Notes under the pieces: model-generated | Told to the model about the DNA's origin: nothing | Databases searched by the model: none | What the model saw: the letters and a program-made list of their open reading frames with translations, nothing else | Made by a program: the position numbers and the translations under genes | DNA from: Candidatus Eiseniibacteriota bacterium | GTDB taxonomy: Bacteria; Orphanbacterota; Orphanbacteria; Orphanbacterales; Orphanbacteraceae | Direction: 5' to 3' | DNA length: 64,000 nucleotides | NCBI GenBank assembly: GCA_029262235.1 | Contig: JAJCZU010000004.1 | Coordinates: 558,001 to 622,000 of the forward strand | Shown here: positions 47,346-56,613 of the stretch, in pieces | Layout: each line of letters opens with the position of its first letter | How positions within the stretch are numbered: the first letter of the stretch is position 1

Positions 47346-48235
47346 CGTTCGCCCCCGATCGGAATGGTGAGCGAACTCGTGAACGAGACGCCGAGAGTCT
47401 TGTGCGTGACGAAGCCCGTGTCGAGCTGCCAGCGTTCGGCGATCAGTCCGAAGCCGCCCCAGAATTCGTCATCGAGGAGCCCGCTCCGGAGCGCGAACAC
47501 GTCGTAGAAACGAACCTCGCCGCCGATGTTGACCGCGAGTTCGTCTTTCTTGTTGCGCGCTGTTCCGATCGAAACGACCGAGCTCTCGTTCCAGTAGTAG
47601 GCAAGTCCCGACTCGAACTCCGTGTCGACAGGCGATCCGCCGTTGCCGTCGATGAAGTCGAACTCCGGGTTTCCCAGATTACGAAGCGTGGCGCCGACGG
47701 CCACTTTCGCGTGAGGGCGATAGAGCACACCGACGTCGAGTGCGGCTTTCGTCTGCGAGCCGTAGTCGAAGCTTTCCGCGCGCGCCGTGAACTGGCTGTA
47801 CGAAACGCGCAGCAGTTTTACCGTGGCCCCGATCCCTACGGCGCCGATGCTCGGGAGTTCCGTCTTCCCGCCCCAGGCGAGCGCGAACGCGTCTTCGCTC
47901 TGTACGTCCTGCAGGCCGAGATGATGCCACGAGGCGCCGAGCGTGCCGAAGCGCGTCGGATACGCGGCGGCGATGTAGTTGATCGCGAGATCATTAATAA
48001 TGTAAGGGCGGTAGTGGTTGAAGAGCACGGCGACACGGTTCTGGTTCGCGAGCCCGCCGGGATTCCAGTGAATGGCAGAGGGGTCGTCCGCGATCGCATG
48101 AAACGCCGACCCCATTGAAAGGGCACGCCCGCCGACTTCCATGCGGTCGAAGTAAGCTTCCGCCGGGTCGCCCGTGACAAGCAGTACGCCTGCTGCGAGG
48201 CACGCCGCGAACCGGAATGTGCGTGCGATCTTCAT
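47342..48235 (-). CDS. PorV/PorQ-like outer-membrane barrel
   Basis: A 297-residue exported protein with the PorV/PorQ (FadL-like) opening motif AFHAIADDPSAIHWNPGGLA right after the signal peptide (GGRALSMG), followed by short beta-strands and ending with SLTIPIGGER. In T9SS organisms PorV carries cargo from the translocon to the surface attachment complex, and paralogs exist with other cargo roles. ATG 48235 overlaps the upstream stop by ATGA. Its co-transcription with a sorted CBM9-like protein and a CBM48 barrel suggests a dedicated shuttle for this operon; this is inference. Confidence 0.72.
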   Translation of the reverse strand: MKIARTFRFAACLAAGVLLVTGDPAEAYFDRMEVGGRALSMGSAFHAIADDPSAIHWNPGGLANQNRVAVLFNHYRPYIINDLAINYIAAAYPTRFGTLGASWHHLGLQDVQSEDAFALAWGGKTELPSIGAVGIGATVKLLRVSYSQFTARAESFDYGSQTKAALDVGVLYRPHAKVAVGATLRNLGNPEFDFIDGNGGSPVDTEFESGLAYYWNESSVVSIGTARNKKDELAVNIGGEVRFYDVFALRSGLLDDEFWGGFGLIAERWQLDTGFVTHKTLGVSFTSSLTIPIGGER

Positions 48236-49608
48236 CGAATCACCGAAAACGCTTTGTTCGAACTGTTCTGCCCGGGCTCGATCACGAGTCGCAGCACATA
48301 AATTCCGCCTGGCACCATTTCGCCGCGTTCGTCGCGCCCGTCCCACTGATCGTCTTCGGGCACCGCGTATTCCACAATGGAACGCTGCTCGTTGCGATAG
48401 AGCGTCTTGATGAGCTGTCCCTGGAGATCGTATACCTCGGCCGTCAAGTCCACGTTACGAAACTCGTCGCCGCTCGGCGGGTCCACGAGGAACGTGAACT
48501 CGAGTGGAAGGTCCTCCTCCGGCGAAACGACGGGACGAATGAGAACGATTTCGGAAATCGTGAAGCGAACCCCGAACAGCGGCGGCGCTGCGAGAAAGGA
48601 AACGCGGCGCGAAACGGCCACGCCGTCGAGATCCGGGAGGCCGTCGGCGACAACGGAGTCGACAGTGGACGAGTCGGGGAACAGGGACTGTTCCCCCGTG
48701 CTCGAGAGGTAATACGTGATGTCGAGGGGAACGATGGCGTAGTTGTCGACGGTCACGAGGTCGCTCGCCTCGGTCGTGTGTCCGCCGAAGTTGTCGGGGG
48801 CGGAATCCGGCCCGCCCGTGCCGTCGCCGCCCGCCGTCAGCACGGCCGCGAAACGAATCGTGTGCGCCGGGTCGAGGCCGTTCGGGAGCACGTAAGTCGA
48901 ATCCCCGGTCCGTTCGTCGTATGCGCGCACGAGCAATTCGGGAAAGAAGACCGTCCACGGGATGCGGGCTTCCATCGACCGCCCCTGCGCCCCCTGCGCG
49001 AACGTGGCGACAGTCTCGAACAGCGTGTTGTCGATCTGTGTCACCGTATTGGCGCCGGACGCCCGCCATGTCTGCGGCGTCGTATTGCCGTCCCAGGTGG
49101 CCATGAAGAAGTCGGGGAAGAAGTTGTTCGAGAATACGAAGTTGCGGCGCCACGCGTTCAGTTCGGTCATCTTTTCGAGACCGCCGTTCCGGTAGTCGAA
49201 CAGCAATATGATGTTGTTGTCCCATGCGATCCCGTCGACCGCGACGTAAAGGTTTTCCGCGTCCCAGCTGATCCAGATCTGATTGATATCGTTGTTGAAT
49301 CCCCACCGGGAATCGTCGGGGCGTTCCTGCAGAATGCGCTCCAGGCTGCCGTCGCCGTCGAGGTCCGTGAGCGTTTCTCCGAAAACGAACTCGTCTTCGC
49401 GCGAGAAATCCGTCGAGTTGCCGTCGATCAGAATGCGTTCGGTGAGATCCGGGGCAGTGGCGGCCAGGGCGATCCCGGGGAGAGAGCCATTCATGAGTGC
49501 GAGGCAGAGGGAAATGGCGGCGGCGGATCGCAGGCAGCAACCGGGGTTCGGCCGGCGCGCGCGGTGATGGTGCCGGATCCTGGAAATGATGTCCGATAGG
49601 GGTTTCAT
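48232..49608 (-). CDS. Secreted CBM9/DOMON-like protein with C-terminal sorting domain
   Basis: A 458-residue exported protein. The signal lies at about residues 25-50 (SAAAISLCLALMNGSLPGIA), preceded by an unusually long basic n-region. Its core carries sandwich strands of CBM9-like or glucodextranase-C-like type (ERILIDGNSTDFS, INQIWISWDAENLYVAVDG, RSMEARIPWTVFF). The C-terminus is a FlgD-Ig-like domain (VDLTAEVYDLQGQLIKTLY...DQWDGRDERGEMVPGGIYVLRL). First gene of the leftward starch-type operon; ATG 49608 was chosen over an upstream start because the latter lies within the promoter region and adds non-signal residues. Confidence 0.68.
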   Translation of the reverse strand: MKPLSDIISRIRHHHRARRPNPGCCLRSAAAISLCLALMNGSLPGIALAATAPDLTERILIDGNSTDFSREDEFVFGETLTDLDGDGSLERILQERPDDSRWGFNNDINQIWISWDAENLYVAVDGIAWDNNIILLFDYRNGGLEKMTELNAWRRNFVFSNNFFPDFFMATWDGNTTPQTWRASGANTVTQIDNTLFETVATFAQGAQGRSMEARIPWTVFFPELLVRAYDERTGDSTYVLPNGLDPAHTIRFAAVLTAGGDGTGGPDSAPDNFGGHTTEASDLVTVDNYAIVPLDITYYLSSTGEQSLFPDSSTVDSVVADGLPDLDGVAVSRRVSFLAAPPLFGVRFTISEIVLIRPVVSPEEDLPLEFTFLVDPPSGDEFRNVDLTAEVYDLQGQLIKTLYRNEQRSIVEYAVPEDDQWDGRDERGEMVPGGIYVLRLVIEPGQNSSNKAFSVIR

Positions 49609-49617
49609 GAGGGCCCG

Positions 49618-49647
49618 ATGATAGCACCAGGGGTAGAAAACGAACAA
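49618..49647 (-). promoter_or_regulatory. Possible promoter of the leftward CBM48/PorV operon
   Basis: On the minus strand TTGTTC (49642-49647), 18-bp spacer, TATCAT (49618-49623). The -10 matches five of six consensus positions, the -35 three. The start site would be only a few bases before the ATG at 49608, giving an almost leaderless mRNA. Weak evidence. Confidence 0.3.
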
Positions 49648-49745: not shown

Positions 49746-51068
49746 CTAGTTCTGTGCGCTCGTCGTCCATCCGGCGGTCCAATCGGCCCCGGCGCCGCTG
49801 TCCATGGCGCCGATGAAATCGACGACTGTAAAAAAACCGTCCACCGGCGGGGTGGCCACGGGTACGGATCCATCGACCGCGGGTGATGACGCGCCGGGCG
49901 CAAATCCGGGGGCAATCAGATCGTACGGGCCTACGAGTGCCGGATCGAGCGTATGATTCTCGAAGCCCTCGGTCATCATCCAGCTGACTTCGTCGATCTC
50001 GTCCGTATCGGTCGGGAAATTCGAGTTCGCCCCGGCGATCCTGTTATCGAAGAAGATCGAATGGCGAAGCGAGAGCGCGCCGGAAGCGGCCTGCGACGCG
50101 GTCGCGGCCGTGGCGACGTCCACCCCTCCCTTGTTGAAGCCGAGGACGATCGCGTTTCGGATCGTGCCTGCCGTCCCTTCACGAAGAAGCAGGCCGGTGT
50201 CCGACTCGGGGCCGTTCGGATCGCCGATGATCGTCAGATTGTAGAGCGTGGGGTTCGAGCGAGGCGTCAGATCGTTGTTTGTGCCGTTGTTGTCGGCCTC
50301 GATGCCGTTGTCCGCATCGGCGCCGTTCTGTTGCGCGATCCAGAACTGGCCCCGGCCCGACCAGCCGTCGGTCCAGTCGAAGCTGTCGTCCCGTACGCCG
50401 GTGCAGAGTACGTATTTGGCGTCCACCGTCCCGCCGAAAAACTCGATGCCGTCATCTTGATTGTAGTGCACCTGCACGTATTCGACCGTCGTTCCGCGCC
50501 CGACTCCCTGGAACGCGATTCCGTTCAGTTCGTTGTCGGGGCTGAATTCCTGCCCGGCGAACTCGACACGCACATAGCGGAGCACGCCGCTGTTGTCGTC
50601 AGGATCGCTGCCGCCGTATGTGCCGGTGTTCCCCTCGCCCTGTGCGGTGGTGCCTGTATTCAGCGGGGCCCGCCCGTTGATGATGAGACCGCCCCAGTCG
50701 CCGCGCGACCGCGCACCCTCGACCTGGTCGCTCGTGAACACGATGGGCTCCTCGGCGGTCCCTTCGGCCATGATCTTCGCGCCCTGCGCGATAATCAGCG
50801 TTCCCGGCGGGTTGCCGACGCTCTCTCCGAAGATCGTAGTGCCGGACTCGATCGTAAGGGTGGCCCCGGTTCTCACGAACACGGCACCGCGTAGCAGGTA
50901 GCCTTCGCTGCTCTTCAGCGTGCGGTCGGCCGCGATCTCACCTTCCAGTATGACAATATCGCCGGAGCTGTTGTTGCTGCCGCCCGAATCGGTCGGGCTG
51001 CTGTCGTCGCCGCATCCGAATGCAACGGTGGTCATTGTGAGAAGCAAAATCAACTTGCGCAGGGACAC
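49746..51068 (-). CDS. Beta-helix lipoprotein partner of the TonB-dependent receptor
   Basis: A 440-residue lipoprotein (lipobox AFGC, then a Ser/Asp/Gly linker). The body is made of short parallel beta-strand rungs (GATLTIESGTTIFGES, GTLIIAQGAKIMAEGTAEEPIVF, FQGVGRGTTVEYVQVHYNQDDGIEFFGG) typical of right-handed beta-helix surface proteins. GTG start, six bases after AGGAGG, 42 bp downstream of the receptor stop. Such lipoproteins are often paired with carboxypeptidase-regulatory-like TonB receptors in FCB bacteria and presumably bind the ligand outside the cell. Ligand unknown. Confidence 0.75.
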   Translation of the reverse strand: MSLRKLILLLTMTTVAFGCGDDSSPTDSGGSNNSSGDIVILEGEIAADRTLKSSEGYLLRGAVFVRTGATLTIESGTTIFGESVGNPPGTLIIAQGAKIMAEGTAEEPIVFTSDQVEGARSRGDWGGLIINGRAPLNTGTTAQGEGNTGTYGGSDPDDNSGVLRYVRVEFAGQEFSPDNELNGIAFQGVGRGTTVEYVQVHYNQDDGIEFFGGTVDAKYVLCTGVRDDSFDWTDGWSGRGQFWIAQQNGADADNGIEADNNGTNNDLTPRSNPTLYNLTIIGDPNGPESDTGLLLREGTAGTIRNAIVLGFNKGGVDVATAATASQAASGALSLRHSIFFDNRIAGANSNFPTDTDEIDEVSWMMTEGFENHTLDPALVGPYDLIAPGFAPGASSPAVDGSVPVATPPVDGFFTVVDFIGAMDSGAGADWTAGWTTSAQN

Positions 51069-51110: not shown

Positions 51111-53909
51111 CTAGAGTTCGTATGAAAGGCCGATCGAGATCGAGCGGCCCGTGCTGTAGCGCCGATAGACGGCGTCGGACTGCGTGTACTCGTTGCGTGT
51201 GTCGAGAATGTTCTTGCACGCGAGCTTGATCTTCGCGTTCGAGGAGAGGCGCTGGCGCAGATCGAAGTCGAGCTGCGCGCGCGCTTCTTCGTAGACGTCG
51301 GCCTGGCCCAGGGCACCGACTTCTTCGATGCGGCGTCCGAACACGTTGAAGAGCAGATTGCCGCTCGTGCCGCGTTCGTCATTGTGGTAGCCGAGCAGCA
51401 CGTTCAGCAGGAACGGCGACTGACCCTGCAGCGCGCGCTTCCGTGTCGTTTCGACCGTCGTACTGTCATCGGAAAGGACGACTTCCGTCTGCATGAGCGT
51501 CAGGTTCGTGTTGAGGGCGAAGTTCGCGAGCCGGCTCGACACGACAGTGAGGGAGCGCCGCCATTCGATTTCGAGCCCGAACGTATTGGCGGAACTTGCA
51601 TTGCGGTAGCTGACAATCGGCGTGGCGTTGTTCTCGATCACCTGTTCGATCGGCTGGTCGAAGTTTTTGTAGAAACCACCGATGGCGAACAGATTATCTG
51701 CGCCCTGAATCGTTTCAACGCGAACGTCGAAATTGTTGATGCGTGTCCGATCGAGGTCCGGGTTGCCGATCTCGGTGCGCCCCCCCACGATGTCCGTATA
51801 TTCGAACGGGGCCAGCTCACGAAAGTCGGGACGCGCTACGGTGCGCGAGAACGCGGCACGATAGTGAATGCGTTCGCTCTGTGCGTACTTGACGCTCAGG
51901 CTCGGAAGCAGCTCAGTCGTGGCGAGTTCCGTTTCGATTGTCTCGCCGGATTCCGAGAACGGGTTGAACGATTCGAGCGCCTGCCTCGAGTATTCGACTC
52001 GCGTGCCGCCGACCGCTTTCCACTGCTCGCCAATCGGCATTTCGACCATCGCGTATGTCCCCGTGATCGTCTGCGTTGCGTCGTAGTTGTCACTGTCCTG
52101 GGTCGTTTCGTTCAGTTCGAACCGGTCGGGGGCAATGTTCTCGGTTGCAAAGATGTCTTCCGGCGCCCCGTTCATGTTGACGGACCCGATGTCGCTCGTC
52201 TGCTTCTCGAACCGAAACCGGCGTCCGGCGAACGTACGATCCTTGTCCTGAAACGATGTGCCGATTTTCAGCATCCGATCCGAACTGCGGGGACCGAGAC
52301 GATGCTTCCAGTCGAGTTTGCCCGACCACTCCACCTCTTCGAGATCGAAGAAGAAACGGCTTCCGCTCTGCGTGATGTCGAAGAACGTCCACTCACCGTT
52401 TCGCTCTTCGTAGAGCACCTCGCGATTGTCCGGCTCGTTCCGCGTAACACGGGCGAACGCCCCCTGCCAGACGAGTTCTGACTCATTCGTCAGGAAGCGG
52501 TCGTGCGTTCCCGTGAACTGCGTGCACAGCAGATCGCGCTCGACGTATCGCAGGCGCAGGCTTTTCGTCTCGTTCCCGCGATCGGCGTTGAATCCCTCGA
52601 CAATGCGTGCCTCGTTGTCCGCGCTCCGGTTGTACATCGTCTTCAGCGATATCCTGTTGTCACGATCGAGCTTCATCGATGTGTTCAGCACCTGGCCCCA
52701 TGATGCGCTTCGCGAGCCTTCCGAACTGACGAAGCTGTTGGCCGGTGACTCGTCCGCGCGGTACGAGTTGATCTCCTTCTCGACGAACTTGCTGTCGTAT
52801 CCGTAGTGCAGGGAGTAGACGTAGCCGACCTTGTGCCCGAAAAGGCCCGCCTGGTCGCCGAGACTGAAGCTGTACGACTGATTCAGGCCCGCCCGTGTTT
52901 CGCGCGGCGACCAGACGTTGTCGAACGAGCGGCCGAACGATTGAACTTCGCCCGGGGCGAATCCGCGGTCCGAAACGACGCTTGTCGAGGAGGTAACAAG
53001 GCGGCCCCCCTGTGCGGTGATGATCCCCGGGAGCGCGCGCGTACCGTTGTCGAACGCCAGGAAGTCGAGATTCCCGCTCGGCGCCACGAGCCCGTTCTTG
53101 AACGACGTGTTCGAGTTGTAGCCGGCCGAAGTGGAGAACGAAAACGCCCGGCTGCCCGGAAACTCCTTCGTCGATATCTGGACGGAGCCGCCGGCGAAGT
53201 CGCCCGCCATGTCCGGCGTGAACGTTTTGGCCACCTGCACTTTCTCGAGAAGTCCGGTGGGGAAGAGATCCATCGGGACAACGGACCGGTTCGGTTCGGG
53301 GCTGGGGATCTTGCTGCCGTTCAGAGTCGTGTTGCTGTACCTACCCCCGAGCCCGCGAACCTGCACGTATTTGCCGTCCGTAACGCTGATGCCGGTCACC
53401 CGTTTGAGCGCGTCGCCCGCATCGCCGGAAGAGCCTTTGCTCATTTGTTCGGCGCTGATACCGTCCTGCACGGCGACCGTCTTCGCCCGCGACATGACGA
53501 GCGCGGCTTCCGCCGATTCGATGGCTTCCTCGCTCACCGCAATGCGCTTCATCTGATGAGTGTTGCCCGAAAGCGAGATCGCCACACGGGTCGTGTCACC
53601 GGGTGGGATCGAGATGGCCGTCAGAACCTTGAACTGATAGGAAATGTGGGCGGCCCGGACATCGTATGTGCCAGCCGGAACGTCGAAGAGGAACGTCCCT
53701 GTGGCGTCCGTAATGCCGCCGTAGCCTGTCTCGAGGACCGCGAGGTCGGCGAAAGCGATGGGCCGGTTCGTCGCTTCATCGACGATCGTACCGTGAATGG
53801 TCCCTCGCGGAGGCTGCTTTACCGGTGCCTGCGCGAAGGAAGTGGAGGTAAATGCTGCAAGCAGCAACGGTAAATGTACCAAACGAATGAATTTTCTGTT
53901 TCCGATCAA
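51111..53909 (-). CDS. TonB-dependent outer-membrane receptor with N-terminal carboxypeptidase-regulatory-like domain
   Basis: A 932-residue exported receptor (signal TFTSTSFAQ region). After it comes a carboxypeptidase-regulatory-like domain (GTIHGTIVDEATNRPIAFAD...TYDVRAAHISY), the plug (VRGLGGRYSNTTLNGSKIP, PMDLFPTGLLEKVQVAKTFT, MAGDFAGGSVQI) and a long beta-barrel ending SIGLSYEL. It actively imports a ligand using TonB energy. The start is TTG 53909 with AGGAGG eight bases upstream; a longer frame upstream overlaps the control region and lacks signal character. It has no SusD partner but is followed by a beta-helix lipoprotein. The upstream repeats suggest regulated expression. Confidence 0.9.
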   Translation of the reverse strand: MIGNRKFIRLVHLPLLLAAFTSTSFAQAPVKQPPRGTIHGTIVDEATNRPIAFADLAVLETGYGGITDATGTFLFDVPAGTYDVRAAHISYQFKVLTAISIPPGDTTRVAISLSGNTHQMKRIAVSEEAIESAEAALVMSRAKTVAVQDGISAEQMSKGSSGDAGDALKRVTGISVTDGKYVQVRGLGGRYSNTTLNGSKIPSPEPNRSVVPMDLFPTGLLEKVQVAKTFTPDMAGDFAGGSVQISTKEFPGSRAFSFSTSAGYNSNTSFKNGLVAPSGNLDFLAFDNGTRALPGIITAQGGRLVTSSTSVVSDRGFAPGEVQSFGRSFDNVWSPRETRAGLNQSYSFSLGDQAGLFGHKVGYVYSLHYGYDSKFVEKEINSYRADESPANSFVSSEGSRSASWGQVLNTSMKLDRDNRISLKTMYNRSADNEARIVEGFNADRGNETKSLRLRYVERDLLCTQFTGTHDRFLTNESELVWQGAFARVTRNEPDNREVLYEERNGEWTFFDITQSGSRFFFDLEEVEWSGKLDWKHRLGPRSSDRMLKIGTSFQDKDRTFAGRRFRFEKQTSDIGSVNMNGAPEDIFATENIAPDRFELNETTQDSDNYDATQTITGTYAMVEMPIGEQWKAVGGTRVEYSRQALESFNPFSESGETIETELATTELLPSLSVKYAQSERIHYRAAFSRTVARPDFRELAPFEYTDIVGGRTEIGNPDLDRTRINNFDVRVETIQGADNLFAIGGFYKNFDQPIEQVIENNATPIVSYRNASSANTFGLEIEWRRSLTVVSSRLANFALNTNLTLMQTEVVLSDDSTTVETTRKRALQGQSPFLLNVLLGYHNDERGTSGNLLFNVFGRRIEEVGALGQADVYEEARAQLDFDLRQRLSSNAKIKLACKNILDTRNEYTQSDAVYRRYSTGRSISIGLSYEL

Positions 53910-53953
53910 GATCAGGGCCTCCTGGATCGATCGTGTGACCTTTTCTTGCCCGC

Positions 53954-54012
53954 ATGGTAGGGAGGGACGATTAGGATTGAATGAGCGAGCCGTTAAGATT
54001 GCATTAGGATCG
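53954..54012 (-). promoter_or_regulatory. 11-bp periodic direct repeats upstream of the TonB receptor
   Basis: Read on the minus strand, 53969-54012 falls into four 11-base units: CGATCCTAATG, CAATCTTAACG, GCTCGCTCATT and CAATCCTAATC. Units 1, 2 and 4 are clearly related and unit 3 is diverged. Nine bases after the last unit is TACCAT (53954-53959), a plausible -10, so the repeats would occupy the -35 region. An 11-bp repeat pitch upstream of a weak -10 is how OmpR/PhoB-family activators bind (the Pho box has 11-bp repeats). No such regulator is encoded here. Whether it serves the receptor or the divergent kinase is unknown; the geometry fits the receptor. Confidence 0.5.
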
Positions 54013-54105: not shown

Positions 54106-56613
54106 ATGCCGGCCCGTTTCGGACCATACGAGCTGCAGGAGAAGATCGCCTCGGGCGGGATGGCCGCGCTCTATCTCGGCGTTCATACGAGTCTCGGGCG
54201 CAAGGTCGCGATCAAGGTGCTTCCGCCGGCGCTCGCTGCGGACAAATCGTTCATCACGCGGTTCGAGCGCGAAGCGAATACCCTCTCCGGACTTCATCAC
54301 GAAAACATCGTTTCGGTCATCGATCTCGGCGAACAGGACGACACGTATTTCATCGTCATGGAACTGGTGGAAGGGACGGATCTGCGTCATCTTCTCGAAG
54401 AGGTCCCGCGCTTCCCTGTCGAAATCGCGATGGCGATCATCGAAGAGATCGCGTACGGGCTGCACGCCGCGCACGACAAGGGCATCGTGCATCGCGACAT
54501 CAAGCCGGGGAACCTGCTGCTCTCCGCGACCGGTGGCGTCAAGATCGTCGACTTCGGCCTCGCGTTTCGCATGGAAGACATGGAGCGCATGACGCGGCTT
54601 ACGGGCGAGAATCTGTCGCTCGGGACACCGTCGTACATGTCGCCGGAGCAGGCGCGTGACGGCGAAACGGATCCGCGCTCCGATATCTATTCGCTCGGCG
54701 TTACAGCGTATGAGCTTCTGTGCGGGAAGCGGCCGTTCGAGAGCGCGTCGCCGTCCGAACTGCGCGAGAAGATCCTGACCGCGCCGACCCCTTCGCTGAC
54801 GGACGAGATGAAGCTGATCGCGCCCGAGGTCGACAACTTCGTGCGCAGGATGCTCGCGAAGGATCCGGACGACCGCTTCCAGAGCATGTCCGATGTGCTG
54901 CAGGAACTGGCGGTCGTGATGGACGCGCTCGAGCGTTCGGGGCATCTCGTCCAGCACCGGCGCCAGTTTCTGCCCCGCTTCGCGGCCGATCCGCACGCGC
55001 TCATTCAGGAGATTCGCACCGCTAAGATCGAGCGTCACAACGATCGCGGGATCGAGCTCATGTCGATGGGGCCCGGCGCGTTTCAGAAGGCGCGGCGCGA
55101 GTTCGACGTCGTGCTCTGGCTCGACCCGGGGAACGAGCGAGCGCGGGAGGGGCTGGCGAAGATCCGAAAAGAGATCGGAGACGACGCGACGGTCGATGTG
55201 AATCAGGTGTTCGCACCAGGCGGAGGTGCGGGGCTCGCCGGCGGAGGCGAAGGAGGCGGTGCGGGGGGCGGGCGCGGCGGGCCTGGCGGCCCGGGCGGGA
55301 AGCGCGCGGGCGGCGGCAGGGAGGGCTCGAAAACGGAATCCCCCGCCGGACGGAAGCCGCTCATGCTGGCAGGGGCGGCGGCGCTTCTGATCGCGCTGCT
55401 CATCGGCGTGTTTTCGATTTTCAAAGGCCCGGCCGACGGGGCGGTGATGGTAACGAGCGAGCCGGACGGCGCCACCGTTTCGATTCGCGCAGCGGGAGCG
55501 GTCGCCTTCGAGTCTGACGGCCGCACCACGCCGTGTGTCGTGAAACTCGCGCCCGGCGACTGGACCGTGCGCGTGGAAAAGGCCGGGCAGGAACCTTCCG
55601 ACCGCACCGTTACGATCGAGTCGGGGAAAGAGGTCGAGATACACGCGGCGCTCGGAATCATGCACGGCTACATGGTGCTCGAGAGCGATCCTTCGGGCGC
55701 CCGCATTCAGAAAAAGGGGCCGGGCTCCTCGTCGTTCGTCGCACACGAGAGGGCGCTCCCCTGCACCCTCGATATCGCGCACGGAAACTGGAGCTTCCTC
55801 GCTTCGTTCGAAGGAATGCGTCCCGAAACTGTCGACGTCTACGTGCGCGCCGGGCAGTGGAATTACCAGCGGATCGCGATGAAACCGGCCGAAACCGTCG
55901 GCTGGATCGTGCTGAAGAGCGCGCCTTCGGGGGCCGCCATTTCGTTTCGGCGTCCCGACGCGGAGGCGTTTCATACGATCGGTCTCGTAACTCCGTGTTC
56001 GCTCGGCCTCGCGCCCGGCGACTGGGTGGTCCGGCTTGCAGTCGAAGAGCGTCCTCCGGTGGAAATCGAAGTCGCGACCGCGATCGGGTCGGCGGACGAG
56101 CAGTTCGTCGAGATCCCGTCACCCATCAAGGCGGGCGAGACCGCTCCCGGTGTCGGGCGTGTCATGGTGGCCTCGGACCCGCCTGGCGCCTCGGTTCGCT
56201 ATCGCAGGCCGGGAACGCAGAGCAGCAGCAACACGGGAAAACGCACTCCCTGCGAAATCGAACTTCCCGCAGGGAGCTGGGAACTGCTCCTCTCGAAAGA
56301 CTGCTACCGCACGGCGACGGAAGTCACGACCGTGAAAGACGGCATGCGGATGGAGATCATGTCGCCGCTGCGCGCATCCGCCCCGGGAACGGTGCGCGTG
56401 GTCGTATCGCCGCTGTTTGCGGACTTCTATCTCGACGGGAGTCTCGTCGCGAAAGAAAAGCGTGTCTGGGAGGGGGGCGCATCCGCCTGCGAGCAGCATA
56501 CGATCGAAGTGCGCCACGCCGAGTACGGTTCGCGCTCGATTCGGGGCTTCACCCCGACATCAGGAAAGACTATAGTCATCGATACCGTATTCGCCGACAG
56601 GAGAGGCCGCTGA
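54106..56613 (+). CDS. Transmembrane Ser/Thr protein kinase with PEGA-type extracytoplasmic repeats
   Basis: An 835-residue Hanks-type kinase. The kinase domain covers about 7-275: Lys 37 in VAIKVLP, HRDIKPGN (129-136) with catalytic Asp 131, DFG 149-151, SLGTPSYMSPEQ activation segment. The Gly-rich loop is SGGMAALYLG rather than a full GxGxxG. A Gly-rich linker (371-405) precedes one TM segment (about 419-439). Outside are about four PEGA-like repeats (GAVMVTSEPDGATVSI, GYMVLESDPSGARIQ, GWIVLKSAPSGAAISF, GRVMVASDPPGASVRY), each with a PC...LAPGDW strand. It probably senses the envelope. RBS AAGGAGA. Coupled by TGATG to the next gene. Confidence 0.92.
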   Translation: MPARFGPYELQEKIASGGMAALYLGVHTSLGRKVAIKVLPPALAADKSFITRFEREANTLSGLHHENIVSVIDLGEQDDTYFIVMELVEGTDLRHLLEEVPRFPVEIAMAIIEEIAYGLHAAHDKGIVHRDIKPGNLLLSATGGVKIVDFGLAFRMEDMERMTRLTGENLSLGTPSYMSPEQARDGETDPRSDIYSLGVTAYELLCGKRPFESASPSELREKILTAPTPSLTDEMKLIAPEVDNFVRRMLAKDPDDRFQSMSDVLQELAVVMDALERSGHLVQHRRQFLPRFAADPHALIQEIRTAKIERHNDRGIELMSMGPGAFQKARREFDVVLWLDPGNERAREGLAKIRKEIGDDATVDVNQVFAPGGGAGLAGGGEGGGAGGGRGGPGGPGGKRAGGGREGSKTESPAGRKPLMLAGAAALLIALLIGVFSIFKGPADGAVMVTSEPDGATVSIRAAGAVAFESDGRTTPCVVKLAPGDWTVRVEKAGQEPSDRTVTIESGKEVEIHAALGIMHGYMVLESDPSGARIQKKGPGSSSFVAHERALPCTLDIAHGNWSFLASFEGMRPETVDVYVRAGQWNYQRIAMKPAETVGWIVLKSAPSGAAISFRRPDAEAFHTIGLVTPCSLGLAPGDWVVRLAVEERPPVEIEVATAIGSADEQFVEIPSPIKAGETAPGVGRVMVASDPPGASVRYRRPGTQSSSNTGKRTPCEIELPAGSWELLLSKDCYRTATEVTTVKDGMRMEIMSPLRASAPGTVRVVVSPLFADFYLDGSLVAKEKRVWEGGASACEQHTIEVRHAEYGSRSIRGFTPTSGKTIVIDTVFADRRGR

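Follow-up and report, generated by a model that had tools for sequence, protein, structure and literature searches.

A putative PHO box ahead of a TonB receptor and beta-helix lipoprotein gene pair in Candidatus Eiseniibacteriota

TonB receptors are commonly guessed to import iron or sugars, whereas here the promoter itself points to the nutrient. Which regulator would read the 11-bp direct repeats that precede one such receptor gene, and in response to which signal? To answer this, we analyzed the window, a 64,000-nucleotide stretch of a Candidatus Eiseniibacteriota contig, together with its genome (G000; 4,466,145 bases in 11 contigs) and homologous loci elsewhere. Sequence comparisons suggest that the repeats form a PHO box, bound by PhoB, that drives the receptor and an ElpS-like lipoprotein in low phosphate, a reading to which we assign a probability of about 0.88.

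Four repeat units in register upstream of the receptor gene

The receptor gene (51111..53909, minus strand) encodes 932 amino acids from a TTG codon and comprises CarboxypepD_reg, Plug and barrel domains (Pfam). The Pfam cut-offs for Plug and barrel were exceeded, and the protein scored 230.4 bits with the TIGR01782 (TonB-Xanth-Caul) model, below its cut-off of 310. The gene probably starts at the TTG at 53909, behind AGGAGG (53918..53923, minus strand), a probable ribosome binding site. A gap of 42 bp separates it from the gene of its putative partner, a lipoprotein of the ElpS/FII type (49746..51068, minus strand) with a lipobox recognized by eye. Judging by gene order, a secreted protein (48232..49647, minus strand) possibly belongs to the same operon; by eye, its end looks like a C-terminal domain of the FlgD type, with no Pfam match. 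The repeats lie in a divergent intergenic region common to the receptor gene and the gene of a PEGA-domain Ser/Thr kinase (54106..56613, plus strand; Pfam).

Read on the minus strand toward the receptor gene (54012-53954), the region consists of unit 1 (CGATCCTAATG, 54002..54012), unit 2 (CAATCTTAACG, 53991..54001), unit 3 (GCTCGCTCATT, 53980..53990), the promoter-proximal unit 4 (CAATCCTAATC, 53969..53979), the spacer GTCCCTCCC and the -10 element TACCAT (53954..53959). The initial annotation had described four 11-base units, three of them alike, nine bases above a plausible -10. This description holds: TACCAT follows unit 4 after a gap of 9 nt, and even the diverged unit 3 retains a TCAT in phase. 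With T[A/C]A[C/T] beginning at offsets 6, 17, 28 and 39 of this region, all four units keep the 11-bp register, and TACCAT begins 14 nt past the last of these starts, the TAAT of unit 4.

This arrangement resembles the PHO box, the operator of PhoB, PhoP and SphR. According to the available portions of two reports, PHO boxes comprise at least two direct repeat units of 11 nt (PMC4415409) and sit ~10 bp above a TAN3T -10 element (PMC1906773); the window has four units and a TANNNT -10 at the spacing given above. The unit core, YTAAY or TCAT, is closer to the cyanobacterial SphR unit CTTAACCT (PMC1906773) than to the CTGTCAT of E. coli (PMC4415409), which it does not match. A CTGTCAT core does not define the family, because the PHO-box consensus differs among species, as stated in the part of the source available (PMC4415409).

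Could the run of similar 11-mers be a product of chance? The divergence of unit 3 would fit such an origin. The pattern YTAAY-N6-YTAAY-N17-YTAAY, however, had a single match in the window and none in 100 shuffles of it, and YYTAAY-N5-YYTAAY-N16-YYTAAY matched only once in the 4.47-Mb genome (reversed-pattern control, 0). The three window matches of YRATCYTAAYS all fell within the box (expected, 0.42), a number reached in 1 of 100 shuffles. Together with the recurrence at pstS described below, these counts render chance extremely improbable. Exact YTAAY triples on three consecutive units were found nowhere in the genome even with one mismatch allowed; this search misses the window box as well, because unit 3 reads TCAT, and the pattern was later loosened from YTAAY to TMAY.

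Recurrence at pstS in the genome and its family

The phosphate cluster of the genome, ~0.4 Mb from the window genes, encodes a PhoB-type regulator, PhoR, PstS, PstC, PstA, PstB and PhoU, with PstS and PhoU exceeding curated cut-offs. A genome-wide search for the two-unit pattern YTAAY-N6-YTAAY returned four places: the window, where a match was guaranteed; the region upstream of pstS, which constituted the actual test; and two sites without an obvious promoter, one at the 3' end of an open reading frame and one without a nearby start of a 100-aa frame. The reversed pattern matched 13 times, as if YTAAY pairs at 11 bp were avoided outside real sites.

The box thus occurs at a core phosphate gene of this genome, pstS. 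The pstS copy reads CTAACGCAATCCTAAC and the window copy CTAATGCAATCTTAAC; the sequence upstream of pstS runs CGACGCTAACG CAATCCTAACA ATACTCGGG TACCTT, with the same -10 offset of 14 as at the receptor gene. Units 1 and 2 of the window contain a 16-mer in common with the pstS promoter, CTAAYGCAATCYTAAC, which with up to two mismatches was found at pstS and in the window only (control, 1); since the pattern was derived from these two sites, this search gauges its rarity. No YTAAY-type box lies ahead of phoB itself.

Combining the two-unit box with a -10 element gave five matches in the genome versus four for the control, so the three besides the receptor gene and pstS are at chance level. Of these three, L168 (G000:C3:611693-611723, minus strand) carries TCACGCAATTCTCAT followed by a correctly spaced TACCAT and lies 71 bp upstream of the gene for a second TonB receptor, an 841-aa open frame in L179; this receptor is a possible further regulon member, its site on its own being not above chance. 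A second such site, L171 (G000:C4:669730-669760, minus strand), precedes the gene of a 356-aa lipoprotein without a Pfam match and is likewise not above chance by itself.

The PhoB candidate (L052:13481-14212) reached 252.2 bits, below the TIGR02154 PhoB cut-off of 296.2. Its phoR-pstSCAB-phoU context supports a PhoB role. The sub-cut-off score would also fit another OmpR-family regulator, such as KdpE or an envelope-stress regulator, binding the repeats, with the receptor answering a non-phosphate signal; regulators of the OmpR family generally bind direct repeats. A case of this kind involves Leptospira LipL48, a putative relative of the window lipoprotein. Its operon with a receptor is under PerR, not PhoB, as stated in the part of that report available (PMC7567364). 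Against such a regulator, the genome's one other promoter with the exact pattern is that of pstS, relatives carry the pattern at pstS with identical -10 spacing, and the PhoB model was the top match for all four regulators scanned, though each fell below the cut-off. We consider control by a different OmpR-family member quite improbable and retain PhoB as the candidate binder.

Searching seven family genomes for TMAY-N7-TMAY-N7-TMAY-N10-TANNNT yielded five matches and no control matches: the window receptor gene, pstS of G002, pstS of G005, and one gene each in G004 and G006. At the G005 pstS, three TAAT units follow one another at 11-bp spacing with the -10 at 14, and the G002 pstS has TCAC, TCAT and TAAC units in the same layout. 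In G003, TAAC pairs at 11 bp lie before a phoB-like gene. No clear box was seen upstream of pstS in two further loci (L122 and L124), and the pstS genes of G004 and G006 appear to be operon-internal.

The G004 and G006 matches (L175, G004:C16:20630; L176, G006:C98:2189) each consist of three TAAC units at 11 bp plus a -10. They precede genes for functionally unassigned secreted proteins with a FlgD-type domain, the G004 one being an FG-GAP protein. An additional box, AATTAATATGTTCTTAAC (a TAAC pair at 11 bp; G003:C23, L160 8869, minus strand), lies before a putative Na/Pi cotransporter gene, named by eye. With respect to PstS itself, the window genome (L052 10398-11468) encodes an E. coli-type protein that scores 396.6 bits with TIGR00975, a model whose cut-off none of six relatives reached, hinting at a pstS replacement.

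Receptor homologues across phyla

A first homologue search covered 60 genomes, 24 of which had a receptor match of any strength, and nine loci (L033-L041) were examined first. A wider scan kept 80 loci from at least 570 relatives, their titles including Poribacteria, Latescibacterota, Acidobacteria, Gemmatimonadetes, Eisenbacteria, Calditrichaeota, KSB1, Ignavibacteriales, Bacteroidetes and Proteobacteria. Removal of near-duplicates reduced 86 upstream regions to 77, comprising 54 from other phyla, 15 from Poribacteria and 8 from which the motif had been drawn (window included).

Within the 54 regions, T[TA]A[CT] pairs at 11 bp numbered 35, as compared to a mean of 6.7 (sd 2.6) at other spacings and to 12 at 11 bp on the opposite strand. 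They were present in 22 of the 54 regions (4 at spacing 12 and 3 at spacing 10) and absent from 32. The stricter YTAAY pairs at 11 bp counted 11 versus 0.4. A weaker excess was seen in the 15 Poribacteria regions (13 T[TA]A[CT] pairs versus 4.5; 10 of 15 regions versus 5 and 5). Exact 6-mer self-matches in the upstream regions gave no single 11-bp peak. A strand control with GTNAC was uninformative, as this motif is palindromic. A tandem-PWM fit to the 77 regions favored the coding strand at high thresholds; we do not count it as evidence because it had been trained on that strand and the opposite-strand fit had the larger total.

The position of the -10 was fixed as well. Among 37 regions with a pair, TANNNT occurred at offset 14, the modal value, in 12 and at offset 36 (14+22) in 7, other offsets being found in at most three. 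Without the window, offsets 14 and 36 accounted for 11 and 6 of 26 non-Poribacteria regions and for 1 and 0 of 10 Poribacteria regions. As a control, the upstream regions of 17 non-family TonB receptors included 5 with a T[TA]A[CT] pair and 2 with a YTAAY pair; the former count indicates that the box is not exclusive to this receptor family. Some of these pair-bearing receptors could themselves be under phosphate control, or else the control is noisy.

Inspecting gene neighborhoods revealed a beta-helix gene near the receptor gene in all nine first loci and in 74 of the 80, where it was a same-strand neighbor in 68. A response regulator was encoded nearby in 19 of the 80 loci, Pst, PhoU, PiT or DUF47 within the fetched flank in 10, and either type in 23, all of these being raw counts. 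In one genome (G015), a single stretch runs RR-HK-RR-receptor-beta-helix-porin-like-PstSCAB-PhoU-PiT. An Alteromonas macleodii plasmid has the order phoB-phoR-phosphate-binding protein-oxygenase-beta-helix-receptor, with GTAAC/GTCAC spaced by 11 bp and, 14 nt farther along, TACTCT (by eye). Near a Marinobacter and a Parabacteroides plasmid copy of the pair, no annotated phosphate genes were found.

These loci also bear on whether the divergent kinase gene at 54106 is a target of the repeats, either on its own or together with the receptor gene. The two genes have the intergenic region in common, and unit 1 lies ~94 bp above the kinase start. Yet repeat orientation and -10 spacing match those of the pstS promoter and of the receptor homologues and point toward the receptor gene, so the kinase is probably not the target; moreover, no homologue of the kinase was found at the nine first loci. 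We deem a role at the kinase gene unlikely and take the receptor gene to be the one controlled.

Because the same site precedes the genome's own phosphate-transporter genes and receptor relatives in many groups, the box reads as a PhoB site. The initial annotation had proposed OmpR/PhoB-type geometry and membership in a phosphate-starvation regulon, with the same units to be sought at the genome's phosphate genes and their absence from related genomes counting against it. Both proposals are supported by the recurrence upstream of pstS, by three-unit boxes with an identical -10 spacing at two family pstS genes (G002 and G005), by the repeats at receptor homologues in unrelated phyla and by relatives of the pair that lie in pst/phoBR clusters.

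Relation to known phosphate-responsive systems and proposed role

A close parallel in gene make-up is the Flavobacterium johnsoniae PhoBR operon (Fjoh_0543-0546), which, in the accessible sections of its description (PMC8115612), comprises PhoR, PhoB, a TonB-dependent transporter (TBDT) and lipoprotein FII. As in the window, the TonB receptor adjoins a pectin-lyase-fold lipoprotein. The same sections report that Pi depletion induces the transporter (8.02) and FII (9.91), which we take as log2 values, and that FI, FII and FIII have 31-36% identity to the Caulobacter lipoprotein (PMC8115612). We found the gene set of this operon also in G051. In the window genome, by contrast, phoBR resides with pst far from the pair, and the likeness is one of gene make-up, not of direct sequence comparison.

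In Caulobacter, ElpS (CC0170) is a phosphate-starvation lipoprotein whose gene has those of a TonB receptor and of type II secretion as neighbors, and the receptor gene cc0171 is reported to be constitutive, according to the available part of PMC2996285. Unlike in that setting, inspection by eye of the open reading frames flanking the window genes showed no type II secretion genes. In Indioceanicola, the homologous pair precedes type II secretion genes; the gene in this elpS setting has 41% identity to the window lipoprotein. The functions of the PhoB regulon in Caulobacter include various TonB receptors, according to the available part of a 2024 study (PMC11208175).

Drawing these lines together, we infer that in low phosphate PhoR would phosphorylate PhoB, which would occupy all four 11-bp repeats in head-to-tail fashion, replacing a -35 element, and recruit RNA polymerase to the TACCAT -10. 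The TonB receptor and the beta-helix lipoprotein would thereby be switched on rather than repressed, and this outer-membrane pair would probably capture and import a phosphorus-containing compound.

Like SusCD and the Pi-regulated PusCD (the latter as described in the accessible sections of PMC8115612), the window pair combines a TonB barrel with a lipoprotein partner; in contrast to both, the partner is predicted to be a beta-helix, with no Pfam match to SusD. More tentatively, and with somewhat less than even confidence, we propose that the pair represents one ancient, PhoB-controlled phosphorus-uptake machine of many diderm phyla, SusCD-like, in which the beta-helix might bind or trim phosphorus-bearing polymers and the box with its 14-nt -10 spacing would be the conserved switch.

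The PHO box is known in kind, and the receptor-lipoprotein box would be a further member. The literature searched, with subscription papers and preprints outside it, contained no description of the box at this pair across phyla. From sequence alone, the box gives access to the phosphate regulon of uncultured phyla, and it links a widespread, poorly named receptor and beta-helix pair to phosphorus.

As for the structure of the lipoprotein, the AF2 model predicts a beta-helix (mean pLDDT 89.8, 44 sequences), its right-handedness being taken from a weak Pfam Beta_helix match. Searches of PDB sequences with the receptor and the lipoprotein returned nothing, and a fold search gave only loose beta-helix matches among the 50 listed (TM ≤0.35 by query length). 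Six acidic residues of the lipoprotein (D205, D206, E209, D227, D231 and E257) are invariant, a cluster that suggests a metal or catalytic site.
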